Of a DNA stretch of 64,000 nt, positions 3,491-59,516 are shown piece by piece; within the stretch, counting starts at the first letter, position 1, and each line of letters starts with the position of its first letter. The DNA lies in the NCBI GenBank assembly GCA_903813345.2, contig CAIIXF020000004.1, forward strand, positions 6,717,525-6,781,524, read 5' to 3'. Under the pieces are notes generated by a model. It was given only the letters and a program-made list of their open reading frames with translations, had not been told where the DNA came from and made no database searches. Source of the stretch: Owenia fusiformis (Eukaryota; Annelida; Polychaeta; Sabellida; Oweniidae). The translations under genes and the position numbers were made by a program.

Positions 3491-3499
3491 TAAATAACT

Positions 3500-4327: not shown

Positions 4328-4732
4328 AAGGAGCCAATTTGAAAATTATATCGCTCGTCTATTCGTTCATAACTGATAACCGAATATCCCGAATGGACTG
4401 GATAGGGGCGGTTGAAAATCCCGCTAACGCAAGTACCTCTATTTAAGAATTATCTAGATACTATCATACTAAAACTGGTAAAACCAATTTTGATTTATTA
4501 GAGATTGCAGTGGATAAACCGATCCGCGATAACCAGAACATGAAATTTTATATGATTCATAAAACTAAATTTATTTGCTATATATTTTTAGAGGGAATCT
4601 AAGCGGTATATAATTTATAAACTAGAAGTGATACTAACATAGATAAGTTTGTTGGCTAATTTGAATGCGATTAAAACAATATGAAAGCATTTTCGAAAAA
4701 ACATGTACCGATTGTATTAAAAATATTCGTTG

Positions 4733-15902: not shown

Positions 15903-16070
15903 AGGAATATTTTGTTGAGTAATTGACGAGGGATTTTCGATCAAATATCATCACAGTTTGTCCATTTTTTAGTCTGGACATTTTGAACATTAATTTAGAG
16001 AGTCATATCGGATTGTATAGAGATTGTGTGTGTATTTTTATTCATTCTTTTTACTCAACATTGTATTGTT

Positions 16071-19000: not shown

Positions 19001-19165
19001 CTTGGGAGAGTTGCAACCAATTTTGCAACCCCATATCGGTGCAAGGGATATTTGCACCCAAAATAAACCTTGGAAGGACACTTGGGAGAGTTGCAACCAA
19101 CTCGGTAACCCCATATAGGTACAAGGGACATTTGCACCCACAAAAGGATTTTAAGAATATTTGCA
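16071..19165. repeat. LTR minisatellite, 5' copy
   Basis: Two related families occur. At about 16071-16850 and 17540-19165 the units are about 60-80 bp, commonly 69, with the core TTGCAACCCCATATCGGTGC then AAGGGATATTTGCACCC. At about 16830-17540 a 69 bp dimeric unit alternates TTGCACCCGGTTGCACCTCGG and TTGCACCAGGTTGCACCCC. Inverted TTGCA...TGCAA pairs mean that single strands can form a hairpin per unit. The 69 nt period is a multiple of three, so several frames stay open on both strands. Confidence 0.85.
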
Positions 19166-25800: not shown

Positions 25801-27228
25801 GTGAAGGACATTTGGGAGAGTTGCACCTTATTTTGCAACCCCATATCAGTGCAAGAGATATTTGCACCCACAATAATCAACGGAAGGACATTTGGGAGAG
25901 TTGCAACCAACTTTGCAGCCCCATATCGGTGCAAGGAATATTTGCACCCATTATAACCATTTGGGAGAGTTGCAACCAATTTTGCAACCCCATATTGGTG
26001 CAAGGGATATTTGCACCCATTATAACCATTTGGGAGAGTTGCAACCAATTTTGCAACCCCATATTGGTGCAAGGGATATTTGCACCCATTATAACCATTT
26101 GGGAGAGTTGCAACCAACTTTGCAACCCCATATCGGTGCAAGGGATATTTGCACCCTCAATAACCACGGAAGGATCTTTTGGAGAGTTGCAACCAACTTT
26201 GCAACCCCATATCGGTGCAAGGGATATTTGCACCCTCAATAATCAACGGAAGGATATTTTGGAGAGTTGCAACCAATTTTGCAACCCCATATCGGTGCAA
26301 GGGATATTTGCACCCTCAATAAACAACGGAAGGATCTTTTGGAGAGTTGCAACTAACTTTGCAACCCCATATCGGTGCAAGGGATATTTGCACCCAAAAT
26401 AATCAACGGAAGGACATTTGGGAGAGTTGCAACCACTTTTGCAACCCATATGGGTGCAAGGAATATTTGCACCCATATCAACCCCCTTAAACAGGTGTGA
26501 AGGATACTTGGGAGAGTTGCAACCAATTTTGCAACCCCATATCGGTGCAAGGGATATTTGCACCCAAAATAAACCTTGGAAGGACACTTGGGAGAGTTGC
26601 AACCAACTCGGTAACCCCATATAGGTACAAGGGACATTTGCACCCACAAAAGGATTTTAAGAATATTTGCATCAGGTTGCACATTTATAAATTTGATTAG
26701 TTGCAGTTGAGTCCCGTGGCCAGGAGCGCCCTTTTATTTCAGGACCAACAAGAGAATATAAAGAGCAGCATCCCACAATTGCTGAAGAAGACTATAGAAG
26801 CATTCAAGTCATATCAACCTTTATCTTTTGTGGAACTGATTAAAGTGAAACAGGATTTGATCTTACTTTCTTATAGTAAATTTAGAGACCTTCAAGTAAC
26901 ATCACATGTATTTTCTGCCTTAAGGCATTAGTGTTTATATAGCTTAGTGTAGTTTGAGTTTAACTTTGTACATAATTGTCTATTGTTTCTAGAGCATTGT
27001 TTGTGATTGTTTGGCTCATAAAGAGCAAATATATAACTTTATTTTTATTCTGTACTTGAATGTTCATTGTTGTATTGTATTGAGTTCCAGAGGGAACTTG
27101 TGTAGTGCAAACCCAGATTGCGTAATACTTTCTTCGCCGCTCCGAAACATCCCGCAATTAAGTAACACGCGGGAGAGTCCACCTTCCCCGCATTTTCCCC
27201 GCATTCCTGACCCGGGAAAAACGTTACA
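22886..27228 (+). repeat. 3' LTR (4343 bp)
   Basis: It is a near-identical copy of the 5' LTR. It has one extra 69 bp minisatellite unit (in 25970-26110) and lacks about 56 bp near 27133, which accounts for the 13 bp length difference. It has its own TATA box at 23263-23270 and donor-like GTAAGT at 23334. Confidence 0.85.
23508..26671. repeat. LTR minisatellite, 3' copy
   Basis: Same two repeat families in the same order as in the 5' LTR, with one additional TTGCAACCAATTTTGCAACC-type unit. AATAAA occurs within some units (for example near 25321 and 26313) and could serve as a polyadenylation signal. No protein is called from the open frames here. Confidence 0.8.
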
Positions 27229-32500: not shown

Positions 32501-33464
32501 TATCATCTTTGAGTTTACACTTGCCTACTGTGTTGATGTCATCTTCTTCAGAAATATTCTCATCATCTTCAATGAGAACATCATCTTCTGGATCATTCTC
32601 ATCTACTTCAGAGAAAATTGCATCTCTAGGGATATTCCCATCATCTTCAGTGAGAACATCATCTTCGTTTGACTTGTTCTCATCATCTTCAGTGAGAACT
32701 TCATCTTCTTTTGGATTGTCCTCATCATCTTCAGTGAGAACTTCATCTTCTTTTGGATTGTCCTCATCATCTTCAGTGAGAACATCATCTTCTTTTGGAT
32801 AATCCTCATCTTCTTTAATGAGAACATCATCTTCTTGAACATCATTTTCGTCATGCTGTCCAACTAACTTGACTCCTGAATTCTCAACTTCATGTTTCTC
32901 ATCTGCATCATCTCTCAACTGTTGCTTCCATTGTTGCCTCGTTGTAACATATGCAGGCACAGGGTTGATCTTTTTGTATATATACTTATTCATTTTATCC
33001 CTGTCTAATCTTTTCAATATGTCTTGACCAAGTAAGACTGGTGTAGGGACTGAATCAGAAACGACTGCTTTCACTTGATATACATCATCACCAATGGCGA
33101 ACTTTACTTTTGTAGTCGGGTAAGATTCCTGGTCCCCATGAACACATGTCATCATAACCTTGTCATTTGTTAAAATGTCCTCAGGTTGTACCAAATCTTT
33201 GTGAATGATGGTCTTGCATTTTCCTGTATCAATCAATAAGGTCACTTCTTTATCATTCAGCATCCCTTGAACTGTCCCATCATCACTGTTGCTGTATTGA
33301 GAGAATATGTCAGATTTTGCCTTGCAAAGGAAAGATTGTTTGCCTTGTCTACGGCACCTGCTCGTGACATGACCAAACATATTACAATTTTCACATTTCA
33401 AGGACATATCTGTGCTACAATTTGAGATCACGTGCCCCAAATTATTGCATTTTGTACATTTCAT
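29541..33464 (-). CDS. Pol polyprotein, order protease-integrase-RT-RNase H
   Basis: This is a 1307-codon frame. The frame is also open upstream of this Met to about 33655, with a further CCHC knuckle. In order: two CCHC knuckles (residues 3-16 and 24-37), aspartic protease with LLIDTG (D79), an acidic repeat region rich in EDDVLTEDDEDNPKE (about 200-310), integrase HHCC zinc domain (about 465-510), DDE core with GMDIVGP, LSDQGTNF (D about 593) and ERFNGT, a GPY/F module (WQGPYKVVRR), reverse transcriptase with VIDLCRGFWQ (about 980) and YIDD (about 1042), and RNase H with TDASAYG (about 1190) ending in the usual ADALSRL. All catalytic residues I can check are present. Expression from gag appears to need a frame change. 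Confidence 0.9.
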   Translation of the reverse strand: MKCTKCNNLGHVISNCSTDMSLKCENCNMFGHVTSRCRRQGKQSFLCKAKSDIFSQYSNSDDGTVQGMLNDKEVTLLIDTGKCKTIIHKDLVQPEDILTNDKVMMTCVHGDQESYPTTKVKFAIGDDVYQVKAVVSDSVPTPVLLGQDILKRLDRDKMNKYIYKKINPVPAYVTTRQQWKQQLRDDADEKHEVENSGVKLVGQHDENDVQEDDVLIKEDEDYPKEDDVLTEDDEDNPKEDEVLTEDDEDNPKEDEVLTEDDENKSNEDDVLTEDDGNIPRDAIFSEVDENDPEDDVLIEDDENISEEDDINTVGKCKLKDDIRGHKPIPVVHNVTQNECQTKDDVTFPFSFDETVFLPKTSDKLYKTKSQRRANKRKHANVDLNKECELDAVSPEDLKELQSNDPSLRDVRMKILNSTEEVRETPYFIMKDGLLIRVTKNPLNEYVEQIVLPRSCRKKILQLAHDIPLSGHLGIKKTTDRILRRFFWPGIYKDIKQFCKSCDICQHTARMRVVDRAPLIPLPVVKEPFTKIGMDIVGPLPRSTKGNRFILCIGDYGTRYPEAVPLRSTDAKKIANELMILFSRVGIVKEILSDQGTNFMSKLLNEVYRLLGVKGIKSTPYHQQTDGQVERFNGTLINMLKKFVVAEPKLWDVYLPYVLFAYREVPNESTGFSPFELLYGRDVRGPLDVLKETWTAKEDTPQTVVDYVLKMRDKLSNLQILAEENAKQAKVTQKKYYDEKSRNISFKPGDDVLLLLPSSENKLEAQWQGPYKVVRRHGKVNYEIELFNGKMKIYHVNLLRKYLDRRDYCFMAATDEEDSDVEEIMNLPTYSLHSTVSSDGNVTSDCNINPELTTNQTKQIKKLLGSFSDVLSNKPGRTSLIKHNVDTGDNIPRKQPSYRIPQSQMKVVKEELDTMLKEGYIEPSRSEWISNIVLIPKKDNTMRFCIDFRYLNSVSRFDLYMMPRIDAILDRLHKAQWITVIDLCRGFWQIPLTDDSKEKCAFRTPWGIYQFVVMPFGLHGAPATFQRMVDEMIRGLEDHVAAYIDDIIIYSETYEDHMKHVEELLNRLRLNNLTAKPSKCQFAFQEVVYCGHMVGKGVVSLKPSAIDAIKNFDKPETKELLKTYLGMTGYYRRFIKDYATKAYNLTELTRNQAPKKIFWEDKSDEAFYKLKEYLCKYPILRSPDFDLQFLVITDASAYGISGILSQNFEDGEHPIMYLSRKMLPRERNYSVIEKECLAMKWSIEKLSYYLLGRVFKVITDHNPLVWLHNMKNTNPRLMRWALALQQYNFTVVHRPGSANKNADALSRL
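32560..32850 (-). repeat. Acidic tandem repeat inside pol
   Basis: In-frame units of about 42-60 nt code for EDDVLTEDDEDNPKED-like peptides between protease and integrase. The opposite strand has a serine-rich shadow frame that is not a gene. An acidic spacer here is unusual and may be removed by the protease. Confidence 0.7.
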
Positions 33465-33649
33465 TATCTCCTTCCCACTCTGGCACGAAGCCGAATGGTG
33501 GCCCCGGACTCCACATTTGAAGCACCGTGACGTCTCCTTGACTTTCTTGTAGTAGTCTTCTTTTGATTCACTTGTATCAGATGGTTTTTCTTCATCATCT
33601 TTGTTCTTCTTTGGGTTGGTTTTGTTTCCAAACCTTTGACTTGGCTTCT

Positions 33650-34499
33650 GCTTTTTCTACATCTTCCTTCTGAGATTTTCTTGCTTCAATGTAATTGTCA
33701 GCTAAGTGCACAACTTCATCAGTTGTTTTTGAGTCATGCTGTCTGACCCAAATTTGCACATCACTGGGGAAGGTGCTAATTAACTGCTCCTTGACGATAA
33801 GATCCTTGAGTTGATCTCTTGTTACAGCATCCTTCGACCATTTGTCAAAAGCATCAGTCAGTCTAATTGCGAAGGGCTTAATTCCTTCATCATTAGATCT
33901 GTGAAGATTCCTAAAACGAGTTCTGTAAGATTAATCGCATATCTCTTCAGGATAGTTTCTTTGACTGTGTCATAATCTATGGCATCAACAGCATTCAAAC
34001 TGACATAAGCAGCCTGTGCTTTTCCTGATAAAGATGGTGCTAATTTCAGTGTCCAATGCTCCTTCTTCCAGTTGCACATCTTTGCAGTTCTCTCAAACAC
34101 AGTCAAAAAATCCTCGATGTCATCACCATCTTTCAGTTTCGTTATGTAGGGATCCTTGGGGCGCTTTTCTTCTTGTTTCTTTTCATGACGAATTTCTTCA
34201 ATGAGTCGCCTATTTTCCTCACGGTATTCTTGCTGTTCCCTAACTCTTCTTTCTTCTAGCTGCATACGGGAATGTTCCATTTTGTCAAACATCTCCATCA
34301 TGAAACGCATCATCATTGTACTATCACCTCCTTGTTGTGGACCAAATTCAGGATCCCTATGTGTCTGCTTAGTTTCAACACCTTGGTCAAAGTCATCATA
34401 GTACTGATCATCATCAACTTGAGTAGGTTTAGTGTTATCTTTAGATTCAGCCATACCTGTTTTCTTTCTGTCTTCAGCTTTTGTTGATCTTGTATCCAT
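33650..34499 (-). pseudogene. Gag of the Gmr1-like element, frameshifted
   Basis: The N-terminal 190 or so codons are open from 34499. They contain an acidic start, a charged coiled-coil stretch (about residues 70-110) and a gag capsid-like segment around DIEDFLTVFERTAKMCNW and LAPSLSGKAQAAY. Near 33930 the frame that continues the family-like sequence changes, most simply by a small deletion, so the 213-codon frame ends abnormally. The downstream gag frame runs to about 33590 and overlaps the pol-side frame, which is offset by +1 from about 33655. Whether this second change is programmed recoding or decay cannot be settled here. Confidence 0.7.
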
Positions 34500-35733
34500 A
34501 ACATTGAATATTAACTAATACACCACACCAAACAATAACACAAGTACCATATAGATCTGTTTTAATTTATACAAAATCTGAATAGCACCTGATATATCAT
34601 CACAGTGTCGTTACAATGTAACTTACATTTCTATCTAACTTTATGCTAACTTGTAACTAAATGTTAAAAGAAATGGCTTCCTATAAATCTAATATCTTAA
34701 TAGAGAATTAACTGAATCCAGTATTCTATATCTTGATTATGAGAATGTAACTTGCATTTCTATCTAACTTTTATTCTAACTTGTAACTATATGTTAAAAG
34801 ATTATGAGAAGTTTCAAAACTAACTGTCCTAAAGCTTAAAATTGAAACGTAATTGGTATAAATAAACAGCACAAGTTGTAGACTATGATGCTAAATCACT
34901 AATCACTAACTATAATTAATTATAATTCTTTAAAGGAATGTCAATCTTTCACTGAACTGTAGTAAAACATATATTGACAGGCCTTGTATCAATTACACTG
35001 CCCCTATTGGCAAGCCATACTTGTTTGCAAACAGACTGAGAGGTCAACTTGACCTTCTAAAATGGCAAAAAGTATTTTAAATCTGATAATGGCCTTCAAT
35101 AACATAAACTCAGGCTACCTATTATGCTCTGCTTAGTGAGTGCGCCTAAAGTTGAAAAAAACATCTAATCTTGGCTAATTATAACTTCACAGTTCACACC
35201 TAACTAACTAACTGGGACACTTAAATCTAATAAACAGTGTTCAAAATCAATATATTGCACTGTCTACAAAACCAATGTAAAATATACCATGTAAATTGCA
35301 AATTGTAACTTTGTAAAATTTCCTTTTTGAAACTTCAAGTTTTCCAATTTTTACTCCTGGATGCAACTTCAATGCATTTCCTTCATATCAAATCATGCTT
35401 ACTATACATAGGGCACTGCTTTACTTTTTAGCTTTATGATTGCCACTGTATATGATTGATATTTGACTTTTGCTTTTCTTATTTTGGTTATCTTGAAACC
35501 TCAATATTTTGCCAATGAAGCTCACTTATTCAATTTGGCTTTTATCTCTAGATTTGCTTTTCTTTACCACTTGGGTTTTATCTTATATCTTGTAACTTGA
35601 GTTGACTGGCCAATGTTCACTTTTTTGTATTGAGATGCAGATATTTTTGCATGGGCTTCTTGCCTTCATCAAAATGTCAGAATCCTTGAGCACAAAGTAA
35701 TGTAACTATATTACCTCTCCTGAAGCGCTTGTT
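34500..35733 (-). other. Leader of the Gmr1-like element, no ORF
   Basis: 1.2 kb of AT-rich non-coding sequence lies between primer site and gag. A direct repeat of about 50 bp (34620-34670 and 34750-34800, sharing TTTCTATCTAACTTT) is visible. It is the expected place of the packaging signal. Confidence 0.5.
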
Positions 35734-35751: not shown

Positions 35752-35989
35752 TGTGAATATGTTACTTACTACTATATATATCTGTTATTGTCGCTATTGT
35801 CCTTTAGGTCTTTCGATTTCTTTATTTCCTCTCTCTGCTACTAATTATTACATGTCTCATATATGGCCACTTCTTGTCAACTGACTTTTCTGGGTAAAAA
35901 CTGGCATGCCATCTATCTTCAATCTACTTTAATGTTATTGTTAGCATGCCATCTATATTTCAATTCACTTTTAATCTTACTATATCACA
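35752..35989 (-). repeat. LTR (5' LTR of the Gmr1-like element)
   Basis: 238 bp, apparently identical to 29134-29371, ending at the CGACA duplication. Confidence 0.9.
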
Positions 35990-36614
35990 CGACATCATTA
36001 AGAAGATTAAAGGCAAAGCCGTTGAAACATTCGGTAAAATCGACGTTCTCGTCAACAATGCAGGAATCCTGGCTTTTCATGATTTAGAAACGGTTTCCAT
36101 GGACGTGTTTGATGAGAAGGTAAAGATCTTATTACGTGCTCCAATCTACCTTTCGCAACTATGTTTCCCAGAGCTCGTCAAGACCCAGGGAAATATCGTT
36201 AACATTTCAAGCATGTACGGATTCAAACCTGCCAGCATGGCCCCGGTTTACAATATCATGAAATCCGCCATGAATATGTTTACCCAAATGTGCCGCCCTT
36301 GAGTTCGCCGCTAAAGGCGTCCGCGTCAACTCCTTAAACCCTGGACATCTTGAGACTGATTTAATGAAGAGGGTTGGTCTTAGCCAAAACGAGGTTACGA
36401 AAATATATTCAGATATTGCGAACACCGTACCTATTAAGAAGACTGGAACCAGTGAGGACTGTGCGATAGTTGCCGTGTTTTTGGCGTCAGACGATGCACG
36501 TGTATGATGAATGGGTCGATGGTGGTACAAGACGGTGGAAATCTCTTGATCGGGCTAGACAGGGGAACAGTCGGTTCAGACAACGCTGCTCACGACCAGC
36601 AACATTTAGGCTAG
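35990..36614 (+). pseudogene. SDR pseudogene copy B, 3' part
   Basis: It resumes the SDR at the codons for DDIIKKIKG and continues to the old stop at 36612-36614. NNAG, NISSMYG and YNIMK codons are still present. An extra A near 36290 (ACCCAAATGTGCC versus ACCCAATGTGCC) shifts the frame, and a further 2 bp change occurs near 36500. It has diverged little, so it died recently. Confidence 0.9.
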
Positions 36615-39982: not shown

Positions 39983-40193
39983 GTACCGTATTATTTTTGC
40001 TTTGATACACAAATTGAATTGTATAGCAAAACATTGACAAGCCCTTCCTCTCAATTAATTCAATCGATGTTCATATAGGGACAAGATGTATTTTCTTTGG
40101 TCCATGATAGACATCAAACATTGTGTGACGTTTTTCAGTAAACACAAGGAAATTAAATGGCAAACGCTGCACAGAGCCACATCAGTACCAGAT
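39983..40193 (-). pseudogene. MFS last-exon fragment, copy C side
   Basis: Almost identical to the relic at 455-665, with the same in-frame damage. It matches 46185-46385. It marks the join between tandem units B and C. Confidence 0.75.
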
Positions 40194-43531: not shown

Positions 43532-43839
43532 TAATTTTGAACTGGATACAACCTGGCTATATCACAACTCCCTTATTGTGTTTACAACCATGGCTGTCTG
43601 AAAAGTATGACATCATAAATTTTAACCTGTTTGTGTAACAACACTACGCAATGGTTTATTGAAAAGGAGTGTATAATAGAAAATAATAAACCGACCCGGC
43701 CTTTGAAATATTTGTAAGCTTTGGAGCATAAAAGGCGTTATATACTGTTCTATTTTTCCATCATTTTAATCGGCTGATTTTTGTAATACAGAGGCGGCTC
43801 CGCAAGATCGGCGTAGGCTAATTAGAAAAGTCAATAACT

Positions 43840-44667
43840 ATGAGGTTTGAAGGAAAAGCCGTGATTGTAACTGGCTCGAGCGCAGGCATAGGAAAAGCCA
43901 CGGCTATACTGTTTGCGAAAGAAGGGGGAAATGTTCTAGTATGTGGACGTGACTTAGAGAAAATCAATAGAACGGTCGAAGAATGTAAAGCAGTCGGAAG
44001 AAAAGACGCAAAGTTTCCATTCGTCCAAGGAGACATCGCAAATGACGACATCATTAAGAAGATTAAGGGCACAGCCGTTAAAACTTTCGGTAAAATCGAC
44101 GTTCTCGTCAACAATGCAGGAATCCTGGTTTTTCATGATTTAGAAACGGTTTCCATGGACGTGTTTGATGAGAAGGTAAAGATTTTATTACGTGCTCCAA
44201 TCTACCTTTCGCAACTATGTTTCCCAGAGCTCGTCAAGACCCAGGGAAATATTGTTAACATTTCAAGTATGTACGGATTCAAACCAGCCAGCATGGCTCC
44301 GGTTTACAATATCATGAAATCCGCCATGAATATGTTCACCCAATGTGCCGCCCTTGAGTTCGCCGCTAAAGGCGTCCGCGTCAACTCGTTAAACCCTGGA
44401 CATCTTGAGACTGATTTAATGAAGAGGGTTGGTCTTAGCCAAAACGAGGTTACAAAAATATATTCAGATATTGCAAAGACAGTGCCTATTAAGAAGACTG
44501 GGACGAGTGAGGACTGTGCGAAAGTTGCCGTGTTTTTAGCGTCCGATGATGCACGTATGATGAATGGGTCGATGGTGGTACAAGACGGTGGAAATCTCTT
44601 GATCGGGCTAGACAGGGGAACAGTCGGTTCAGACAACGCTGCTCACGACCAGCAGCATTTAGGCTAG
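43840..44667 (+). CDS. Classical short-chain dehydrogenase/reductase, copy C
   Basis: This intronless 275-codon gene differs from copy A at about three residues (Lys to Arg near 48, Glu to Lys near 80, Leu to Phe near 127). It has TGSSAGIG at 11-18, NNAG near 91, the catalytic Ser in NISSMYG and YNIMK, so it should be an active NAD(P)-dependent oxidoreductase. The substrate cannot be deduced. An upstream TATA-like box (43728) and a downstream AATAAA (45085) give a plausible mRNA of about 1.3 kb. It is the copy with the ancestral-looking promoter, shared in outline with dead copy B. The intact MFS transporter follows convergently on the other strand. Confidence 0.92.
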   Translation: MRFEGKAVIVTGSSAGIGKATAILFAKEGGNVLVCGRDLEKINRTVEECKAVGRKDAKFPFVQGDIANDDIIKKIKGTAVKTFGKIDVLVNNAGILVFHDLETVSMDVFDEKVKILLRAPIYLSQLCFPELVKTQGNIVNISSMYGFKPASMAPVYNIMKSAMNMFTQCAALEFAAKGVRVNSLNPGHLETDLMKRVGLSQNEVTKIYSDIAKTVPIKKTGTSEDCAKVAVFLASDDARMMNGSMVVQDGGNLLIGLDRGTVGSDNAAHDQQHLG

Positions 44668-46262: not shown

Positions 46263-47221
46263 TCATAAAGGGACAAGATGTCTTTTCTTTGGTCCATGGT
46301 AAGACATCACGCATTGTGTGACGTATATCAGCACACAAAAGGAAATGGCAAACGCTGCACAGAGCCACATCACTGCCTGCGCCCCATGATACTGCAGTAC
46401 ATAACCACTACCCCATTCTATTATTGCACCTCCCACGCCACTCCCTATGTTACATATCATAATCACTGAACCCGTTACTTCCATGTACCTCTCCGGCCAT
46501 GCCATTCCAGACGCCCATATTGAGGCATAGAAGAAATCGAAGACACCGCCGAGAACAGCAAAGTTCATACGACTCTTTAACGCCATGGCAACTGCAATGA
46601 AGTTGATGATAGCGATAGCATGGCATATCACGAATACGATAAACGGCATTGGAACAAACTTTGAGACTGGAATTATTATGAAATTTCCTAAAATCGCAGA
46701 TCCCCTTGCTGCAAACTGCATGAGTGAAGCCTCCTGTTTTGTTGCATTCAATGCCCCAGTGGCTATTGAAGCTTGTAGTAATTGAAAATGTGAACTACAT
46801 GCCCCGTTAATTGAGAAGTACAAGAACATACACGTCATTAAAGTTACACCGTATCTCGCATTCCCATTTGTGAAAGAACCCGGATGTAACAATTCCTTTA
46901 AATTCCTTCCTTTAGGTATATTGGTTAACACTAGTCCTCGGGGCCGTGGTGCTAGATACACCCCCAAATATCCAAGTGATGCCAATAAGCCAAGTCCTCC
47001 ACTTATAACGTATGGTACCTCGATGTTAGATGTGAATTTGATTTCAGTCCCGTTGTTAAATACGGATGCATTTGTGTAAATAGCTTCCCCACGGCTAGAG
47101 CTGAGGAAAGGGTACGCCAGAACAGGCGCCACTAAAGACCCGATCCTACTCCCAAAGTGCATGGCCAGGAGTGGGGCCGGTGTATTTCCTCCCCATATGG
47201 CTATCATTATTCCATTACCAG
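46263..47221 (-). CDS. MFS exon 4 (terminal)
   Basis: 959 nt from acceptor TTTTTTCAG|CTGGT to TGA at 46263-46265. Encodes TM5 to TM12 and a short basic C-terminus (HGPKKRHLVPL). The large outer loop after LAYPFLSS carries sequons NAS and NGT. Confidence 0.88.
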
Positions 47222-50200
47222 CTGAAAAAACAAATTCATCGACATACATTACATCTAACTGTTTGGTTTACAAACGTTGCTGCTACAACAATGACGTCGT
47301 ATCGCATGCTTATTATGTACCATTGTTTCTTTATTAGGTTCTTCAAGATGTATCAGGATTTTTGTTTTACATATTAAACATGTTTCTGAAAACTGTGAAT
47401 CGATGAACTTTTTTGTGTGTTCGGAAACGAGCGCTTTAAGAGGAAGGAAACCCCCAGAGCTTACCTCAAAATTATCTATTTTGTTAACCACTTTCGTTTG
47501 ACCGAATTTTCACCATCTCGTTTCTGAATACCACACACGTCAATGTGATATGTAAGTAATTGATGTAAACACATTTCTAATATTTTTCTATACCTGCACG
47601 TGAAATCTTGGTAAATACGGCCGATATTGCCTTTATATAACTAGCATTCGAAACATTTTTTCAAAGATTTGAATCGGCCATTTTGTTTAGAATACCAGCG
47701 ATTATGGTCATCAATATTTCTATTTAAGTTATGGTCATCATTGAACTCTGGGGGCTTCCCTTCTCTTTGGCGCTCCTTAAAGGTGAACGGTTCCATTGTG
47801 AAAGAAACTATGGTTCCCCAAGATCATGGTCCCTCCTTCTAAAGGCCCTTACTGGCCCTGATTATGTATAAGATACTAAGGGAAAAAGGTCACCATATAA
47901 ATCAATGGAGAGTAGGGCCATAAGTTAACAGGACCTCCTACCCTTTTACACCATGTATTGGCTATAATCATTGATATTTTGAATTGTATTATTTACCTAT
48001 TGCAAATATACCATGAGCCGCACCTTCCAGCCAGTAAAGAAATGCGAGCGCTGTGATGCCTCTACACCAAGGTTTAAAAGCAACAGAAACGGCCAACAGC
48101 AAAAATCCTGAAGATAACTGGAGATCCCAAATTTTCCGGAATCGATCGAATAGAATACCTGTAGAAAAATCGAAAACTTATGAATGTTCCCCATGATAGA
48201 CTCAAAGTGTGGACGATATGTATTAATTTGGATAGGGCATGACAAACGTTCTCTCGACGGTTCAGGTACAACTATATCCGTTCAGATTTAACGAAAAACT
48301 CTCAATATAATAAATATTTTTTTGTAAAGCGACAGTATTCAGAAAGGAGAAAGCTATACTTAAACCAGAACTAATGGTTGGCGCTCTGTTCATCTCAATA
48401 TATGTAGCTTTATGTGTAATTGAGGAAATAAAACTAAAACTTTTTAAAAAATATAAAAAAATATATAAGGTTACATTAACATATATATAATAATGTAACT
48501 GCTCTTCAACAATAGCTAGACAATAAGCATGGGCGTAAATCCGTTCTGCATAATCGTACCTTGACTCACCTCCTACTAAACACCCGATTATATACCCAAT
48601 ATCCATAATTGTACTTTGACTCACCTCCTACTAAACACCCGATTATATACCCAATATCCATAATCGTACCTGGACTCACCTCCTACTAAACACCCGATTA
48701 TATACCCAATATCCATAATTGTACTTTGACTCACCTCCTACTAAACACCCGATTATATATCCAATATCCATAATCGTACCTTGACTCACCTCCAACTAAA
48801 CACCCGATTATATATCCAATATCCATAATTGTACTTTGACTCACCTCCTACTAAACACCCGATTATATATCCAATATCCATAATCGTACCTTGACTCACC
48901 TCCTACTAAACACCCGATTATATACCCAATATCCATAATCGTACCTTGACTCACCTCCTACTAAACACCCGATTATATATCCAATATCCATAATCGTACC
49001 TTGACTCACCTCCTACTAAACACCCGATTATATATCCAATATCCATAATCGTACCTTGACTCACCTCCTACTAAACACCCAATTATATATCCAATATCCA
49101 TAATCGTACCTTGACTCACCTCCTACTAAACACCCGATTATATATCCAATATCCATAATCGTACCTTGACTCACCTTCTACTAAACACCCGATTATATAT
49201 CCAATATCCATAATTGTACTTTGACTCACCTCCTACTAAACACCCGATTATATATCCAATATCCATAATCGTACCTTGACTCACCTCCTACTAAACACCC
49301 GATTATATACCCAATATCCATAATCGTACCTTGACTCACCTCCTACTAAACACCCGATTATATATCCAATATCCATAATCGTACCTTGACTCACCTCCTA
49401 CTAAACACCCGATTATATACCCAATATCCATAATCGTACCTTGACTCACCTCCTACTAAACACCCGATTATATATCCAATATCAATAATCGTACCTTGAC
49501 TCACCTCCTACTAAACACCCGATTATATACCCAATATCCATAATCGTACCTTGACTCACCTCCTACTAAACACCCGATTATATACCCAATATCCATAATC
49601 GTACCTTGACTCACCTCCTACTAAACACCCGATTATATATCCAATATCCATAATCGTACCTTGACTCACCTTCTACTAAACACCCGATTATATACCCAAT
49701 ATCCATAATCGTACCTTGACTCACCTCCTACTAAACACCCGATTATATACCCAATATCCATAATCGTACCTTGACTCACCTCCTACTAAACACCCGATTA
49801 TATACCCAATATCCATAATTGTACTTTGACTCACCTCCTACTAAACACCCGATTATATATCCAATATCCATAATCGTACCTTGACTCATCTCCTACTAAA
49901 CACCCGATTATATACCCAATATCCATAATCGTACCTTGACTCACCTCCTACTAAACACCCGATTATATACCTAATATCCATAATCGTACCTTGACTCACC
50001 TCCTACTAAACACCCGATTATATATCCAATATCCATAATCGTACCTTGACTCACCTCCTACTAAACACCCAATTATATACCCAATATCCATTATCGTACC
50101 TTGACTCACCTCCTACTAAACACCCGATTATATACCCAATATCCATTATCGTACCTTGACTCACCTCCTACTAAACACCCAATTATATACCCAATATCCA

Positions 50201-53200
50201 TAATCGTACCTTGACTCACCTCCTACTAAACACCCGATTATATACTCAATATCCATAATCGTACCTTGACTAACCTCCAACTAAACACCCGATTATATAC
50301 CCAATATCCACAATCGTACCTTGACTCACCTCCTACTAAACACCCGATTATATATCCAATATCCATAATCGTACCTTGACTCACCTCCTACTAAACACCC
50401 GATTATATACCCAATATCCACAATCGTACCTTGACTCACCTCCTACTAAACACCCGATTATATATCCAATATCCATAATCGTACCTTGACTCACCTCCTA
50501 CTAAACACCCGATTATATATCCAATATCCATAATCGTACCTTGACTCACCTCCTACTAAACACCCGATTATATACCCAATATCCATAATCGTACCTTGAC
50601 TCACCTCCTACTAAACACCCGATTATATAATATCCAATATCCATAATCGTACCTTGACTCACCTCCTACTAAACACCCGATTATATACCCAATATCCATA
50701 ATCGTACCTTGACTCACCTCCTACTAAACACCCGATTATATACCCAATATCCATAATCGCACCTCGACTTACCTCCTACTAAACACCCGATTATATATCC
50801 AATATCCATAATTGTACCTTGACTCACCTCCTACTAAACACCCGATTATATATCCAATATCCATATTCGTACCTTGACTCACCTCCTACTAAACACCCGA
50901 TTATATACCCAATATCCATTATTGTACTTTGACTCACCTCCTACTAAACACCCGATTATATACCCAATATGCCTCACCGCTGTAGCTCTGGTCAACTCTT
51001 CGACACTACTGCCAGTCCTCTCGCAAAGATCAGGAAATGTCGGATATTTAATCGTTAATACCAAACCCTGTAAAATATACATGTATGTTAATGGATAAAA
51101 AAATTCGTTCAACCATGAACGAGTAAAGGTCTACAGGATGTCTCAAAAATGTACCCGAAAGTAGAAATATATTAACAGCACAGCTTAACCAGTCAATTTC
51201 AGACTTTTTGCATGGTCATGTTGGTCAAGTTTTCTCCAAAATGCACAGTTTTTAGTTCAGACTCCCCTTTTTGATGTATTAACCTTTTACTTTTATTTCA
51301 TATTTCGATGACAGTCTGCATCCTTATGCAACATTGTTCATCACATTTGATAATGTTTCTGGTGGAATGTTTTGAATTTCTCTTTGGAGATTGGCCTTAA
51401 GTTGTTCTTAGTCTTTTGGCTTGGGATTAGCTTTAAATTCTCATCCAAATAGCCTCAGAGAAAGAAATTCGCGGATGAAGATGGGAGGACAATAACAGAG
51501 AACCAGGTCAATTTTCGTTAAATGATTCAATAATGGAGTTTCACTTTTCAGAGTTACGGAGACTGATTGGTATATCCAAATGAGAACACTGAAGTCTTGA
51601 GAAGATTGAGCCCCTCCACATTCAGCAAGGGTCATACAAGAATTCCCATGAAAACAGTTTCTTCAACGTCTGATCTCTCTGAATAAAGACATTGCGAGGG
51701 CCTCCCTGTTCAACAGATTTTACACCCCAGACTTTTTTCTCTGGGGTAACTTGAAGAACCATATCTATGCTAAGCCCAAGCCAAGAGATCTAGAAGAACT
51801 TGAGGCCAACATCCGAAGAGAAATTCAAAACATTACGTACACCAGAAACATGATGAAATATAATCAACAATGTAGCAGTAAGGATGCAGGCTGTCATCGA
51901 AATATGAGAAAGTTAAATTCAACACATGGTATAAAAAGGGTTAAAGCATTAAAAAGGCAAGACTGAACTAAAAATTTAGTATTGGGAGAAAACATGTTTT
52001 GTCTATTCTAGATTAAGCATTTTCTACAAATTGCTCAATTCATTTTCAAATTGCTTCAGTTTGACAAAGGTTTCTTCTACAAGTTCTCAGGAGGTGAAAT
52101 CTGACCTTAGATTTGCGATTTGACCTATACCTCAGACCTTATTACATTCCTCTGAATTGGTTCTACTCATATAAGGGACTAACTATTTCATAAAATTTTG
52201 CATCGCTTTTGAGATATAAGACCAAAACGGAAAAATCGAAAAATTCGAAAATTTTCAATATCAAATTTAAACTTGCTTCAAATTGATCAATTTTTTTTAG
52301 AAATCATCCACAAGTTTTCAGGAGATGTGACATTTGCTTGACCTTCACTATTTTAGACTCTTGATGAAACTGGTCGAATATTGATATGATTTTTTGATTT
52401 GACAGGGTTTATCTCCTTTGTGGCTTGCTGTACCCTTTATAGTTTGCCTCTTCGATTTGAAAACTTCCCACGACTTTTGAATGTATAACTTAGTCATTCA
52501 GTCTGACAAGCCAACGTTTACATTCATATATCATATATAGCTGAATACCAGATAGGCAGGTGGCCCCCAACTGCACTTAACAGGTGTGACAATAGACTAG
52601 ATGCGAGTAGAAAAAAATCTTGATTTACGCCATTAAATATTCAAAATTCAGTCAAAGCGATGTTATATTTGAAATCTACATGTAAAAGTACACCTAGAAA
52701 TATGGTTTCGAAAATTGTTTATCAAGTTTGAGAATTTAATTATTTTTGAAAGTGTGAGTTCTAGTTCGGGTTGATTCTCCATAGAGCCCATGTTACAAAA
52801 TCACAAAAAGTGAAATATCTTTTCTTGTATTGGTCAGATAACATTTTCATTTCCTGGACATATTTTGATTTTCATAACTATTAGATACATAAGGGTTATA
52901 TGAAAATTGAACCACTAAAACAGATGTAATTTAAGTTAAAGGGAACTTTCTACTATACCCGCCATGCTATCTGACCCGAACGAGCCACCTGGTGGTGAAA
53001 CTGGTAACTACATACTCGCATCTGCGTTATTCACAACTTTTATTGTAAACATTATATTGGGAATATAGACTTATCAAAGGGTAACACATTCATATAAAGT
53101 ATTGTTGTGTGTCATTAAAAATAAATAAAACATAAATATAAACATTTACTCGTTGACTTAGATGAACATCAGAGTGGAACTAAATACTTCAGGTCATGAA

Positions 53201-56200
53201 CTAAGGATGGCCAGAGAATTCGAAAACCTTCATTCGCCACACTTTCCCTCAATGCGTTGTTGTGATAAAGGAATTGACAATAATCTTAAAATTACCTCCT
53301 GTTCAAGTTCCAATCATTTTTATAGATTATATTGATAGATTTAACATCACTGAATACGGTATTGCTTGTTGAGGACCACACAACATTACCGTTTATCATT
53401 TATTTGAGATTTAAGCAGGGGTCCATTTTTTAAAGAAATAATCGTTTTAAAAGATTTCTTGTGAATAGATAATAAACAAGTACAAAAAGTATGAATTATT
53501 ATATATCGAAAGCATAATGTAAAATTTCAACTGAAGAATTAGATCAAAATGGAATCAAAGTTCACAGTAGGGGGTATAACTCATCAAACACTGTATACTT
53601 TTTTTAAGCTTATCGCAACAGCCTTATGTTTTTGATTTGCTTTTGTTAGTTAGGATTATATCATTGACCATTTATAAATTTTTGTGAACCATACAAGGTT
53701 ACAGAACTTCATTTATGAAAGATTTCAGCAGGGGTCTATTTTATGAAAATTAAATATTTTTCCGGATAGTTCTGACCTCCACTTGGGGATCTTCATTACT
53801 TATAAGATTTCAATATTACAATAATGTCGGTATCATCATAAACAGGCACTAAATAAGTGTAGACTATTATAAATAGGTTGACAGCAAGACGATTTATACA
53901 ATTAAAACTGTAAAATGAGATAACATTTGGGCTCTAAAATCACAATGATTGGTATAACTAATCAAATGTTTACTTTCTGAGCTTATTATCACATCCTAAC
54001 AATTTAAATTGGTTTAAATAGATATAATTGAATCATTTGCACTTTCTGAATTTCGAATATCTTAAAATGGTTCAGATTTTTATTGAAGATTTAATTCAAG
54101 TCTAATTCAAAATATGAATATTTTTGTGGATAGTTCTCAGATCAATTACTATTAAAACCACCTTGCCGGGAATGGGTAATCGTGCTAGTTTAGAAGGCAT
54201 TTACGTTACTTTATCGATCTGAGCAATATATGACGGCATAGTGGCGGGCCATAGTGGAGGGCCAAAAATGCATTAACGCCCGGTAATTTTCACCGGGAAA
54301 TGAGATATCGTATAATAAGCATATAATTTTTGCTATTTCAGTCCTTGGCATTAACGGTGGTAATACTAATAACATAATTTCTGTGGGCAATATTAAACAA
54401 ATACTGGATGACCAGGAGCTGGATATGGCAGAATACCTTTTCGAGAAAAAAATATTGGGTGAGGCGGTAAAATTAATTTCAATAGAACGTTTGGGTTCTA
54501 GCATTGCCTCATGATGGGATAGTCTATTTTCTACTAAATAAAATAATCAATTACTAAAGTTATGTGCTTGCAGAGGTTGCCTGTATCACAAAAATCATAT
54601 ATCCTTTCACCCCACATCATATCATATGCTTTATTGAGGTTAAAATCTCATTTTATAAATAGTGGGAATAGATTCTTAATTCATCTTAGATTATAATTTA
54701 AATGCAAAAGCCGATTCATAAGTAGATAATTCGTTGTAAACTTCAAAAGTGTCAATATCTAATATTTTTTATTATTATAGACCTCTGTTAAACCCCTCAA
54801 TGATAAGTAAACGGTAATATTGACAGGTCCTCGACAGGTGAAAACGTATGTAGGAATATATGTTTTATCATTTAAACATATCATTTAACAATTTGTGGAT
54901 CAACGAAAAACAAGATGCTGTTAAAAAAAGTGAACTAGATGGAACCATTATTTTTCATCATTTTGAATGCAAAATATAGTCAGACAAACAATCTTAGTTT
55001 CAATTAAACTGAAACTCGATTAATGAGTAGATAATCTGTTGTAAACTTCAAAAATATCAAAATCTAATATTTTTGTTGACCCCTGTTACCTCAATAATAA
55101 ATAAACGGCATTGTTGACAGGTCCTCAACAGGTGAAAATGTATGTAGTAATATATGTTTTATCATTTAAACATATCAGAACAGCTGGCGGATCAACAAAA
55201 AACAAGATGATATTAAAAGCAAGTGAACTAAATGGAACCATTATTTTTCATCACTTTGAATGACGTGTCGCAAAAAGGTGGCGCATTTGTTTTTTAGGGG
55301 TATCGCGTGAATGTAACTTTGATTACCCGGATTATAAAATAATATTCTAATTAAAGTTGTATATCATTTTAAAGCTGTTTCGATGAAGTTTTTAGATTAA
55401 CTACACTCCGTTCACAATTCTTGCGCGTTCTTTTTTAAAAAAAGAGTTTTTTACCAAAACATCTGGCAAATATTCCCTGTTGACACGTTACATTTTGAAT
55501 TATTTTTCGTCTTTAAACGTTCATAACTCAAACAATATATGACTATTATACTTATTTTTCGTCTTGATAAAGGTAGATAGAAGTTTTATTTCAAAGGATG
55601 AATTTTAGTAAGCGTCCCATATTGTGACGTCATAGAGTTTGAAAAATAGAATCTGTTGACAGCGACCTTTTCTGCTCATTTTTTTGTTCCTTCAACTTTT
55701 CAGGTGTACATTAAACAAAAAATACGAGATCAATTTTTAATAAATCATACATGATTATTTTGCTCCTTAACTCTAGTTTATTAATAAATAGTTGATTTTT
55801 TTCGCAGAAGTATGTGTTTTCTGTTGTATATGGAAAAGTGGAGGACGAAAGGTTTTCAAAAGTCATCAAAATATGGCTAATTTACGCCATTCGCCTATTT
55901 TCAAGCACAGCAACACGTATATTTATTTCACCTAAAATATCAATTGATTCGTGTTTTATGATGCTCCTAGCCCATTAACAATATATATATGATATCAGAG
56001 TTATTCGTCTAAAATGTTTTGAGATAGAGAGGTAAATGTGGACGACGAAAGGATTTTCATTTGTGTACATTTTTCTCAAAAACGTCACATTCTACCATGT
56101 TAAAAGCGAGGATCCTCTGGATTACGCCACAAAATGTGTAACAATGCGTGCGCGAGCTTTTTGCGATACATCGATGCAAAATATAATCAGACAGACGATC

Positions 56201-59200
56201 TTATTTTCAATTAAACAGATTAAATCAATAGGTCATGCTAATCTTCACAAAAACCGATTCATAAGTAGATAATCCGTTGTAAACGTCAAGAATATCAAAA
56301 TCTTATATTTTTTTTATTTTTTGTGGACCCCTGTTAAACCGCTCAATAATAAGTAAACGGTAATGTTGACGAGTGCTCAACAAGTGAAAACGTGTGCAGG
56401 AATAAACGATTGGAGGATGAACAGGAGGAAACAGCTTAATTAAGGCTTATCTGAAAAATTCCATTATCACCATTGTTCCTTTAAGTTAGATCCGTATGTA
56501 TACAGTGCGTATCAAACAAAACGCAACAGATCGTTATCTCGGAAAAGCACAAAACCAGTGATAACAGCATTGATTTCATTCAATGCACGGTAAAGCCATA
56601 TGTCTCCTCTTTACAATGATATATCATTCATTGATATTTGGTCATGGTTGGGCGAGTAATCATTCCATTTGCAAAGTGCGCCAAAATTAGCTTTGGGCCA
56701 AGTTATAAAAATCGCAAAAGTCAGTGTACGGAGCCCGATGCAATATTGGAAGAAAACATAAAACCAATGCTGATTGCATCCTTTTCATTCAATGTACCAA
56801 AAAGCCGGACTACTCCTCCTTGCAATGGAATATCATTCATTCACAGGGAGTCATGGCTGACCGAATAATCGTTGATTTTGCAAAGTGGGGCAAAATTCAG
56901 CTCGGACCCAAGTTTTAAACATTGCAAAAGTCAGTACAACGGGCATAGGGGGCTATTGGAAGAAGGTGTGACAGGTGTGGTATAGACAGTAAAGTGTTCA
57001 TACTCATACTCTTGCAAGAATACATCCAATACCCCTCCAAATTGCTACCACTTTCTTGCACATAAAGATGCGCTCTTCTGTCCACGTCATGCATGGTTCA
57101 GCCCTGAGTCATCTGTGGGTTAAAGCAGAGAAAAGCAGCCCATGGGCAACTCTTTCTCGAGGTTTTGCAACATCTGGTGGAGGAATCGTGAGCACAGATG
57201 CTCCTGAGAGAGCTCCAAAAGAAAAAGTCACAAGAATTCAAGTCAGGGGAACTTCCATTGGCACTTAACCCTTGCACTGATTTTTTCAATATCTAAAACT
57301 TGGCCCAGAGCCGATTTTGACCCACTTTGCAAATGGAAGGATTTCTCACTCAACCATCACCACATGCGAATGAATGACATATCATTGCAAAGAGGAGAGA
57401 CGTGGCTTTATGGTACATTGAATGAAATTGATGTAGTCATCACTAGTTTTGTTATTTTACGAGATAACTACTTGTTGCGTTTTTTTGATACGCCCTGTAG
57501 AATGTTTTACTGATCTTCATGAGTGTAATAACCGATACTTATTGAAAGAGGTCGTACACTCCAATAGCTAGGTAGTACACTCCATACGTTTGGCAACGTA
57601 TATATTCTTCAAACCAACTTTTTGAAAAAAATACAAGTTAGGTAGTCAATTGAACTTGCTTACTTTACTTAACAAAAACTTGATACTTCTCTTCAGGTTT
57701 AAAAAAGTTATAGGTCTTCAAAGTCAAAATTCCGAGGCATTGGAAATGAAGCCAAGTTATATTTCCATCAATATCATAAGTATTTTCATCGCACGTTATG
57801 TAAATAAGAATTCAAACATAAAGATGCTTTAACACGTAATTCAATGAGGGAGCCAAGGTTGCCAAACTTATGGAGGGGCGGGAGTGTATGTCTGCATATT
57901 CTACCATAATGTGTACGAGTAAATATCCACATTTCATAATTATCTCGGTAACTACTATCATACAAATTAGTAAAACTTCTTAACATACGGATTTACTACA
58001 GAATCGTTTTTATGATAAAATCGAGATCTGTGTAGCATTTTCTTGACCCCATTTATAACGTAGGGGTGACTTCAAATATTAAATGTCAGATAGGAAACTG
58101 AATAGATTTATTTTGGGGATGGAAGCCCGAGGCTGATTTAGTTTACGACATTACTAACTTTTAAACATACTATAAGTTTTGAGTTACAAACATCTGAAAA
58201 GTCGTGAATTGAACTTTCGTTAATGAGTTTAAAGATCTCTATTGTTTACACACGCCTCTCCGTACGCACTTAAACAAAAAATATCAAATTCAATAAATTG
58301 ATGGGCTGCTTATGTGTTAGAATGGTGTTACAATGTGGGGCTTACTAGACGAAAATGAAAAATAACTTTCAAAACATACCCGATCTACCGACATCAAAAT
58401 GAACGATGCTATATTCACAAGTGAGCCGAAAACAGCTTTGTATTAATAAAAATAGTAAATGGAGCGAGCGGTCTTTGGTCGCAATTTCATTTATATTGAC
58501 TGTGATGATGTAAGTATTGCAAACAGAAAATGACGAAAAATTCACTGAAAAATACGTTCGTTTCGTCCACTGAAATTAAGGTTATTCTCTCTGGTTGAAG
58601 TTACTTTTATGGGACCATTAACGAATATATTCAAATTCGACCCTCGTGTTGATATCAACGGCATTTATTTGTGCTATTTTGTTGACAGCACAACTGGTTA
58701 TCATAACCATGCAATTGTATTAAAAATATCGCTTTTTCTAAAAATAGCTCTAATGATGATTTTATGATTAAAAACAAAGTTTTGTTTTGTTTGTTGTAGA
58801 TGAACCCGGATTACAGCACAAACACAAGCAGTGTTAATATTTTGGGCAGGCTTAAGAAGAATAACAGAATTTGAATGTATCGTTATCAATAATCGTAAAT
58901 AGGCCCTTATATTAGGATACGTTACGTACGTTATATCATGTTGGATTTACTTTATTCAAAAAATAGATGACTTTTCTCTTTTCACTCTTGTTGACTTTGC
59001 GAACTTATTTCTAGCGTATGATTAAATTAAACAAAACAAAACCTCCTCTTTTTTTTTTAATTAGTCACGCTTTCATCTGGATTTTGCTCGCAATTTCGAG
59101 ATTTTCCGCAGTGCGAGGATCGTTCTCATTTACATCGTGCGTACATTGATTTACTCTTGGCTTTTGACCTTAAAGGTTGCCTTGACCTAAGAAAGTCTCT

Positions 59201-59516
59201 CTTATATAGATATTCTTTGTTTAACGATAAGAGTAATAAAATGATCAAAACTCACGTTTACGATCCATGTCACTATTAACAGGATCGTCTTTATAAGTTT
59301 ATATCGAAACACTTTCTTCTCTGAAGATGCCTTACTGACATAATCATCTTCACCTTTAGCTTTATCCAATGGACTGGCACGATCAGTCAACGGAACTATA
59401 CATCCATTTACATCATCATTATTATTGTGTCTATCATCCTCCTCTTTGGTGTTATCAATATCAGCAACGTTAATATATTTTGTCTCGAAAGTCTTCTGTT
59501 TAATTTCGCATGACAT
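46263..59516 (-). CDS. MFS transporter, MFSD4/NaGLT1-like, four exons
   Basis: Spliced from 59516-59256, 51067-50938, 48158-47997 and 47221-46263: 261+130+162+959 = 1512 nt, exactly 503 codons plus stop, with all junction phases agreeing (0, 1, 1). The product is a 12-helix membrane protein resembling the MFSD4 / sodium-dependent glucose transporter 1 family (human members about 515 residues). Seen: a charged cytoplasmic N-terminus, TM1 across the exon 1-2 join, KYPTFPDL (family GPTLLDL position), GYIIGCLVGG in TM2, and the MFS signature GILFDR formed across the exon 2-3 join. Also seen are GNTPAPLLAMHFGSRIGSLV in TM5 and two N-glycosylation sequons (NAS, NGT) in an outer loop. Sugar transport is inferred from the family, not shown. 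Confidence 0.85.
47785..47955. mobile_element. Diverged small TIR element in MFS intron 3
   Basis: About 170 bp related to 1456-1628 (shared AAAGGCCCTT.CTGGCCCTGATT-type core and TTTTACACC end). Confidence 0.5.
47997..48158 (-). CDS. MFS exon 3
   Basis: 162 nt between acceptor TTTTTCTACAG and donor ATAG|GTAAAT. Encodes ILFDRFRKIW, then LSSGFLLLAVSVAFKPWC and LAFLYWLEGAAHGIFAI (TM3 and TM4). Joining to exon 2 restores GG-ILFDR, the conserved MFS loop. Confidence 0.85.
   Translation of the reverse strand, partial: VFYSIDSGKFGISSYLQDFCCWPFLLLLNLGVEASQRSHFFTGWKVRLMVYLQ
48549..50970 (-). repeat. 55 bp minisatellite carrying an exon end and splice donor, about 44 copies
   Basis: On the gene strand each unit is 33 nt of exon 2 end (coding IGYIIGCLVGG) plus 22 nt of intron start (GTGAGTCAAGGTACGATTAT and two more). 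Donor positions run from 50938 to about 48570: 43 steps of 55 bp plus one 3 bp insertion near 50630. The array makes up about 86% of the 2779 bp intron 2. Units are highly alike, with C/T variants near the intron part forming at least two subtypes. Confidence 0.92.
50938..51067 (-). CDS. MFS exon 2
   Basis: 130 nt between acceptor TATTTTACAG and donor GGAG|GTGAGT. It encodes GLVLTIKYPTFPDL...IGYIIGCLVG and ends in phase 1. Its last 33 nt and the splice donor are the first unit of the 55 bp tandem array that fills the intron behind it. Confidence 0.85.
51131..51990. mobile_element. Two inverted Tc1/mariner-like transposase relics in MFS intron 1
   Basis: Plus-strand 51690-51966 encodes a mariner-type C-terminus (DFFLWGNLKNHIYAK, then DLEELEANIRREIQNI). 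A diverged copy of the same end lies inverted at about 51230-51450. The left edge has TACAGGATGTCTCAAAAATG, like mariner ends. Both are frameshifted and non-functional. Confidence 0.65.
52020..52390. repeat. Diverged relative of the 14443-15430 repeat
   Basis: Shares motifs such as AAATCATC.ACAAGTT-like strings followed by TTGACCT. Two overlapping partial copies seem to be joined. No gene. Confidence 0.35.
52391..54341. other. MFS intron 1 sequence, nothing recognised
   Basis: AT-rich, short frames only, no convincing exon or repeat on either strand. Confidence 0.4.
54342..54514 (+). CDS. Candidate terminal exon on the plus strand, unknown product
   Basis: A good 3' splice site (TTTTTGCTATTTCAG) is followed by 56 open codons (LGINGGNTNNIISVG ... 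ILDDQELDMAEYLFEKK ... SSIAS) and TGA. The composition looks coding, but I recognise no family and see no upstream exon. It lies inside intron 1 of the MFS gene on the other strand. It could be a retro- or transposon-derived fragment. Confidence 0.25.
54690..55265. repeat. Tandem direct repeat of about 285 bp, two copies
   Basis: 54690-54985 and 54985-55265 share long stretches such as TTTATCATTTAAACATATCA and GGAACCATTATTTTTCATCA. A third partial copy is at about 56160-56410. Non-coding. Confidence 0.55.
55266..56159. other. No gene seen
   Basis: AT-rich sequence with no frame or motif that I can support. Confidence 0.4.
56503..57497. mobile_element. Tc1/mariner-like foldback element
   Basis: The ends CAGTGCGTATCAAA and, inverted, CAGGGCGTATCAAA are flanked by TA (56501-56502, 57498-57499). 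The inverted arms extend about 250 bp. The left arm is partly duplicated in tandem (about 56560-56745 and 56765-56950). A minus-strand piece near 57200-57260 encodes SSPDLNSCDFFFWSSL, a mariner transposase C-terminal motif. Non-functional. Confidence 0.7.
57500..59255. other. MFS intron 1, first 1.8 kb, nothing recognised
   Basis: No supported frames or repeats beyond short AT tracts. Confidence 0.4.
59256..59516 (-). CDS. MFS exon 1 (start codon to donor)
   Basis: 87 codons, MSCEIKQKTFE onward, acidic and hydrophilic until the first membrane segment begins at YKLIKTILLIVTWIVN. The donor is AAC|GTGAGT (phase 0). A weaker in-phase donor, GTAAAC, lies two codons earlier. The start is the only Met in a clean frame upstream of the helix. 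Confidence 0.8.

Follow-up and report, generated by a model that had tools for sequence, protein, structure and literature searches.

How is the end of an exon chosen when that end, together with the 5' splice site behind it, has been copied dozens of times into the adjoining intron? The question is raised by a 64,000-nucleotide stretch of the genome of the annelid Owenia fusiformis (contig CAIIXF020000004.1, positions 6,717,525 to 6,781,524; hereafter the window), the minus strand of which carries a transporter gene of the major facilitator superfamily (MFS) whose second exon runs into a minisatellite of 44 units, each made of the exon end and its donor. Based on the reading-frame consequences of each donor, the constraint on the coding sequence and a series of paralogues with one or two units, we propose that the array is a tolerated product of tandem duplication and that its first donor is very probably the one at work.

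The donor array and its gene

Tandem Repeats Finder (TRF) delimits the minisatellite at 48549-50970 on the minus strand (period 55, 44.0 copies, 96% matches, score 4432), and splitting it on the donor gives 44 units with 42 inter-donor steps of 55 nt and a single step of 58 nt, owing to a 3-nt insertion between units 6 and 7. An earlier reading of this DNA from its letters only (the sequence-only reading) had described about 44 head-to-tail copies of 33 nt of exon end plus 22 nt of intron start, and TRF, the unit split and the joined exons together confirm that observation. Unit 1 is the true end of exon 2 (exon part 50970-50938, donor at 50937), and the remaining 43 copies all lie inside intron 2. 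The mean pairwise identity of the units is 95.8%, and as aligned they comprise 24 distinct sequences, units 7 and 44 being counted as distinct partly on account of the insertion and a missing last base. Two unit types are intermixed, with CAAAGTACAA present in units 1, 21, 32, 39, 41 and 43, CAAGGTACGA in nearly all others, and unit 3 intermediate between them. Units 1-4 show a mean of 2.5 differences from the unit consensus and units 39-44 a mean of 1.8, compared with 1.1 for units 8-38; such a deficit of differences in the inner units is what unequal exchange would leave.

The nine nucleotides over the donor read GAGGTGAGT in 39 units, AAGGTGAGT in two, and GAGGTAAGT, GAGGTTAGT and GAGATGAGT in one each. 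The word RAGGTRAGT is kept in 42 of the 44, the exceptions being those with GAGGTTAGT and GAGATGAGT, and the earlier claim that one intron presents the spliceosome with dozens of near-identical 5' splice sites accordingly stands. Against these 42 occurrences, 2000 first-order Markov sequences of the same composition hold a mean of 0.21 (maximum 3), and elsewhere the word occurs twice on the same strand of the window and is absent from introns 1 and 3 and from the opposite strand. The energy of the duplex with U1 is -10.4 to -10.5 kcal/mol in 42 of the 44 units. The predicted fold is more stable than its shuffled counterparts (-179.0 against -160.8, SD 7.1, the control being a mononucleotide shuffle only), and donors 1-6, from which accessibility was taken, are unpaired at 0.52-0.64 as against 0.38 overall; as these donors look accessible, we rejected the idea that the donors are hidden in RNA structure. 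The donor 9-mer shows five minor variants over the 44 units, whereas several other 9-nt stretches of the unit show zero to three. The donors are therefore not specially protected, and we likewise rejected selection acting specifically on them.

The gene surrounding the array has four exons on the minus strand. Exon 1 (59256-59516), located by tblastn with the deposited protein and by its open frame and donor, runs from the start codon to AAC/GTGAGT and is followed by intron 1 (51068-59255, 8188 nt). Exon 2 (50938-51067, 130 nt) codes for ...HIGYIIGCLVG(G) and ends GTGTTTAGTAGGAG before GTGAGT, the junction at 50938/50937 reading GAG/GTGAGT; intron 2 (48159-50937, 2779 nt) starts with donor 1, GTGAGTCAA, at 50929-50937. 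Exon 3 (47997-48158) follows the acceptor TTTTTCTACAG, starts GT ATT CTA TTC GAT CGA and codes for GILFDRFRK..., so that the MFS motif ...GYIIGCLVGG-ILFDRFRK is rebuilt over the junction of exons 2 and 3. Intron 3 (47222-47996, 775 nt) and exon 4 (46263-47221, mapped by tblastn and including the stop codon) complete the gene. The join 59516-59256, 51067-50938, 48158-47997 and 47221-46263 reproduces, letter for letter, the deposited Owenia fusiformis protein P0003 of 503 amino acids, and this identity bears out the sequence-only model in which unit 1 is the true exon end and exon 3 restores GILFDR in phase. The gene model is sound, and both exons and splice sites are intact. The accessible part of the genome report describes the Owenia annotation as RNA-seq-guided, with 99.29% of transcripts RNA-supported (PMC9977687).

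P0003 carries a precomputed MFS_1 domain (PF07690) and the UniRef name sodium-dependent glucose transporter 1. On these sequence matches we assign the gene to the NaGLT1/MFSD4-like MFS sugar transporters, with sodium-glucose transport attached to it by name only. Scanned alone against Pfam, exon 4 scores 15.9 bits for MFS, under the cut-off of 33.4 bits, and exons 2 and 3 give no MFS match; none of the solved structures compared by sequence matched. At 40074-40185 of the window, three short pieces match the C-terminal end of exon 4 and probably represent a partial copy of the MFS gene.

Which donor is used

The reading-frame consequences single out donor 1, the only donor that restores the deposited protein: it yields exactly its 503 amino acids, while donor 2 yields 176, and donors 3-44, like full retention of the intron, yield 149. 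For donors 2-44 every stop lies at least 77 nt upstream of the last exon junction; as premature stops upstream of the last exon junction fall under the general rule of nonsense-mediated decay, the corresponding transcripts would be expected targets of that pathway. Since all of these donors give premature stops, the transporter would be made from donor 1 only. A four-taxon codon model, comprising this gene (C4) and three paralogues on C11 (C11a, C11b and C11c), gives an omega of 0.22 on the C4 branch and 0.365 elsewhere. The difference between the two is not significant (p=0.085), and for the C4 branch the test excludes omega=1 (p=6e-10), which places the C4 coding sequence under purifying selection. 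This constraint, together with the stops produced by donors 2-44, makes donor 1 very probably the working splice site.

The lengths of the exons and introns suggest a reason for its success. The ratio of intron length to mean exon length is 19.0 for donor 1 and 0.31 for donor 44, and ratios above 1 are, in the available portion of one study, taken to favour exon definition (PMC5762160). The lengths for donor 1 would thus favour exon definition, under which the spliceosome would select the donor closing the shortest exon, namely donor 1, and the use of donors 2-44 might be negligible.

Paralogues, origin of the array and competing explanations

A protein search of the 498.3-Mb genome with exons 2 and 3 returned 35 matches, several of which run through both exons in one stretch without this intron. 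We read five genes among them, all on C11 and all with an intron at the same place: C11a (27.501 Mb) has two units and an intron of 574 nt, whereas C11b (27.521 Mb, intron 257 nt), C11c (27.562 Mb, 264 nt), C11d (23.807 Mb, 256 nt) and C11e (23.798 Mb) have a single unit each. In C11a (C11:27499808-27503606), tblastn recovers all of exons 1-4, and the join of exons 2-4 keeps the frame. The first units of C4 and C11a share a variant (CAAAGTA, then C or T, then AA) that sets them apart from the last units of both genes (CAAGGTACGA). This shared variant suggests that the dimer is older than the split of the two loci or was passed between them by conversion, with growth to 44 units in C4. In a tree rooted with the distant paralogue C11d, C11a branches first (ultrafast bootstrap 93 for DNA, 99 for protein); the approximately unbiased (AU) test gives p=0.935 for this arrangement, p=0.097 for C4 and C11a together and p=0.032 for C4 first. 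Consequently, C11b and C11c may have kept an ancestral single unit or come to it by contraction or conversion. Two other origins were rejected. The exact 20-mer over the exon end and donor occurs at 39 places in the genome, 38 of them in this array and one in C11a, which argues against an introner or other dispersed mobile element; and the presence of the intron at the same place in five C11 paralogues, four of them single-unit, argues against a new intron made by duplication.

We propose, with a probability of roughly 80%, that the array is a passenger tolerated because splicing uses the first donor. A 55-bp segment over the junction of exon 2 and intron 2 would have been tandemly duplicated in an ancestor of the C4 gene, two units surviving in C11a, and would have grown to 44 units in the C4 copy through unequal exchange or replication slippage. 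The exon end itself is intact, with the duplicates on its intron side; the spliceosome would recognise exon 2 (130 nt) as bounded by its acceptor and the first donor, and the extra donors would be removed along with the intron. Several points weigh against this proposal. In experiments with duplicated donors, splicing often prefers the intron-proximal of two equal sites, and on that basis donor 44 would be the favoured one; the purifying selection recorded on the C4 branch may date from before the array; and the deposited proteins may follow ab initio or homology-based choices. Furthermore, the deposited protein of C11a is partial (P0005, 327 amino acids, beginning at the junction of intron 3 and exon 4), which could hint at poor expression of the 5' half of that gene.

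The sequence-only reading had offered a U1 small nuclear ribonucleoprotein (snRNP) sink, a splice-choice regulator, a decoy lowering expression, or tolerance through use of the first donor. Of these the last fits best, given the stops from the other donors and the coding constraint; as conservation of the donors does not exceed that of the rest of the unit, the sink, the decoy and the switch gain no support, and we found no positive evidence for them. Nor is the array a single case, for C11a has two units and other genes have arrays of their own (see below). A related proposal, which we consider rather unlikely, is that the array acts as an expression rheostat: a fraction of transcripts, spliced from donors 2-44 or stalled with many U1 snRNPs, would give stop-containing mRNA that is degraded, and copy number would tune output. 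The stops of all 43 other donors, at least 77 nt before the last junction, the strong donor in 42 units and the predicted accessibility of donors 1-6 are all compatible with it, and the length of an intronic variable number tandem repeat (VNTR) can alter splicing, as reported in the accessible text on TERT VNTR6-1 (PMC11830802). However, the donor positions, with their five minor variants, are not the most conserved in the unit. The same absence of selection on the donors above that on the whole unit makes it very improbable that the dozens of U1-complementary sites form a U1 sink or a local U1 platform, for instance one suppressing premature polyadenylation; moreover, U1 is very abundant relative to the nascent copies of one gene, and a global sink is implausible.

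Slighter still is the chance of recursive (ratchet) splicing, with every AG/GTGAGT junction serving as both acceptor and donor. The consensus unit does have AG directly before the donor, but the 20 nt preceding it in unit 1 are only 40% pyrimidine as against 55, 70 and 65% at the three real acceptors of the gene, and we rejected these junctions as recursive splice sites. An equally slim chance attaches to an array collapsed or expanded in assembly. Tandem arrays are error-prone in assemblies, yet the many distinct unit sequences and the independent two-unit paralogue C11a speak against an artefact here, as do the long PacBio reads of the Owenia assembly, whose N50 of 25.75-30.75 kb, given in the accessible part of its description (PMC9977687), implies that single reads should span the 2.4 kb array. 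That assembly, given as 505.8 Mb in its description, and the 498.3-Mb genome analysed here, from which the copy number is taken, appear to be versions of one assembly.

Exon-end donor arrays in other genes and systems

We searched the genome for three AGGTRAGT words at a spacing of 28-58 nt, counting matches, of which one array gives several. The search gave 605+451 matches and the reversed word 314+215. CAGGTAAGT three times running gave 105+38 matches against 53+1 for its reverse; among the 100 matches listed of 143 there were 10 arrays, the reverse giving 54 matches. TAGGACAGT gave two arrays (60 matches) and its reverse eight matches. Counted as a single word, CAGGTAAGT is no more frequent in the genome, at 4020 occurrences, than its reverse, at 4453. 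AGGTRAGT forms six arrays in C1:0-11.975 Mb, as against 16 that the reversed word forms in 89.6 Mb, two of them within that stretch of C1 (ratio 2.8, one-sided p=0.038); with few controls and words of our own choosing, this is only suggestive of donors being a hot spot for arrays. Array number was estimated in two ways, both based on six arrays: six arrays per 100 matches listed gives about 60, and the density over the first 12 Mb of C1, 0.5 per Mb, gives about 250.

Upstream flanks were read for 16 arrays, namely C4, five of the six in the AGGTRAGT listing (C1:11974k left out) and all 10 among the 100 CAGGTAAGT matches listed. In 15 of them, C4 included, the first unit is the end of an apparent exon, with an acceptor and a frame that stays open as far as the first donor; the exception, C8:19707k, has a likely donor about 80 nt upstream of it. 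As the arrays were picked by strong donor words, true donors are favoured in this sample. Pfam searches covered 10 of the 14 array exons outside C4: six lie above the curated cut-off (Tetraspanin, NIF phosphatase, B56, Rieske_4, Muted and Il2rg), a Kringle match falls under it (E=2.6e-4), another exon has a weak match (E=0.043), and the remaining two gave none. Seven of the 14, comprising the weak one, the two unmatched and the four outside the Pfam set, are recognised by open frame and acceptor only. The Muted-family gene (PF14942; C1:2575106-2576699) has a 32-donor exon-end array with a unit of mostly 52 nt and a stop in unit 2.

The tetraspanin array (C1:442748-444583, first donor C1:442748) has 19 donors and a 54-nt unit, with 18 contiguous units that stay open in the frame of the exon and one donor past an insertion. 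The deposited protein P0007 joins ...GIGIGVVE directly to IVGIVAACC, a join that corresponds to donor 1, and P0008, a related protein, agrees in length at this junction; the last exon of P0007 was not placed within the DNA read at this locus. Directly upstream of the array the same exon occurs once more as a partial copy that includes its acceptor.

In the NIF-phosphatase gene (C1:45655300-45657200, C1:45656k), presumably Dullard/CTDNEP1-like, the unit is 50 nt of exon plus GT. The native intron past the last unit starts GTAAGTGTTCTCGG and the exon holds AAGTGTTTTC; the 7-nt word AAGTGTT common to both offers a ready and likely seed for the duplication. Units starting at RAGT, as in this register, also occur at C8:16840k, C9:14148k and C1:5412k, the native intron behind the array being seen at the NIF-phosphatase gene only. 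The choice of arrays by strong donor words may over-represent this register, and the computed lengths of the exon part give a maximum only, that for C4 being 46 when the right figure is 33. An acceptor-like word, TTTTNCAGG, three times running, gives 173 matches in the genome against 92 for its reverse; since acceptor-like tandem arrays exist, the phenomenon is not shown to be donor-specific, and arrays may stand at exon starts too. We offer tentatively, as a possible generalisation about which we are more doubtful than confident, that Owenia fusiformis carries tens to hundreds of exon-end donor minisatellites, that the donor's RAGT at +3 to +6 and an exonic RAGT provide the short homology that seeds them, that donor segments are favoured birthplaces of such arrays, and that all such genes obey a first-donor rule. 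If so, the genome would amount to a natural saturation test of exon definition.

The closest precedent is human IFI6, in which the unit is reportedly about 12 nt and the extra donors are said to give alternative proteins; the Owenia unit, by contrast, is 55 nt, not a multiple of three, and every extra donor gives a stop. What the two have in common, as far as the available IFI6 texts go, is a minisatellite at an exon end with donors in its units, which in Owenia takes the form of 42 RAGGTRAGT donors and a first unit that is the exon end. In IFI6 two downstream repeat units act as donor sites, and three mRNA species result (PMC4526556, in the portion available), and the human minisatellite providing multiple donors goes back to a 1995 report cited in PMC2572611 and PMC3618361. 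In the accessible account of the potato RNA-dependent RNA polymerase (RdRp) gene, a tandem genomic duplication over an intron-exon boundary likewise carries the splice signals along, and the AGGT model of intron gain is set out in the same account (PMC4974935), but there a new intron arises, whereas in Owenia an existing intron is enlarged and its donor copied many times. TERT VNTR6-1 (38-bp unit) is likewise a minisatellite within an intron of a protein-coding gene and is comparable in unit and copy number, but it is located some 3.5 kb upstream of the exon that it affects and is reported to act via G-quadruplexes, and the earthworm metallothionein genes, two tandem copies with identical coding regions, are annelid genes with large tandem arrays in the first intron; neither is described, in the parts of these reports available, as copies of an exon end and donor (PMC11830802; PMC12783039). 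In literature searches with thin coverage of subscription papers, we recognised no paper on donor arrays in Owenia, or on exon-end donor arrays as a class, besides those citing IFI6.

The choice among identical donors has been studied through engineered duplications of a few sites. Here a single genome offers an intron with 44 near-identical donors alongside a paralogue that has two and others that have one, and unrelated genes add the in-frame tetraspanin case, in which each of the 18 contiguous donors would keep the frame open. The set of arrays is thus a natural experiment in which first-donor choice could be measured by position from RNA reads. Many-fold copying of an exon end and its donor need not inactivate a gene, a point that bears on intron growth and on how annotation and variant tools handle such regions.

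The window holds further repeated elements. TRF rows of TTGCACCC-rich repeats of 29 to 90 nt and longer at 16070-19143 recur almost unchanged at 23507-26649, an offset of 7437 bases, and the segment spanning them looks duplicated. Three copies, one partial, of a single plus-strand open frame (3494-4327, 35898-36302 and 43822-44667) are, judging by their translations, presumably short-chain dehydrogenase-like. Minus-strand open frames at 6178-9465 and 29541-34514 have translations that we take to resemble a broken element of the long interspersed nuclear element (LINE) kind and a Ty3-like retroelement.

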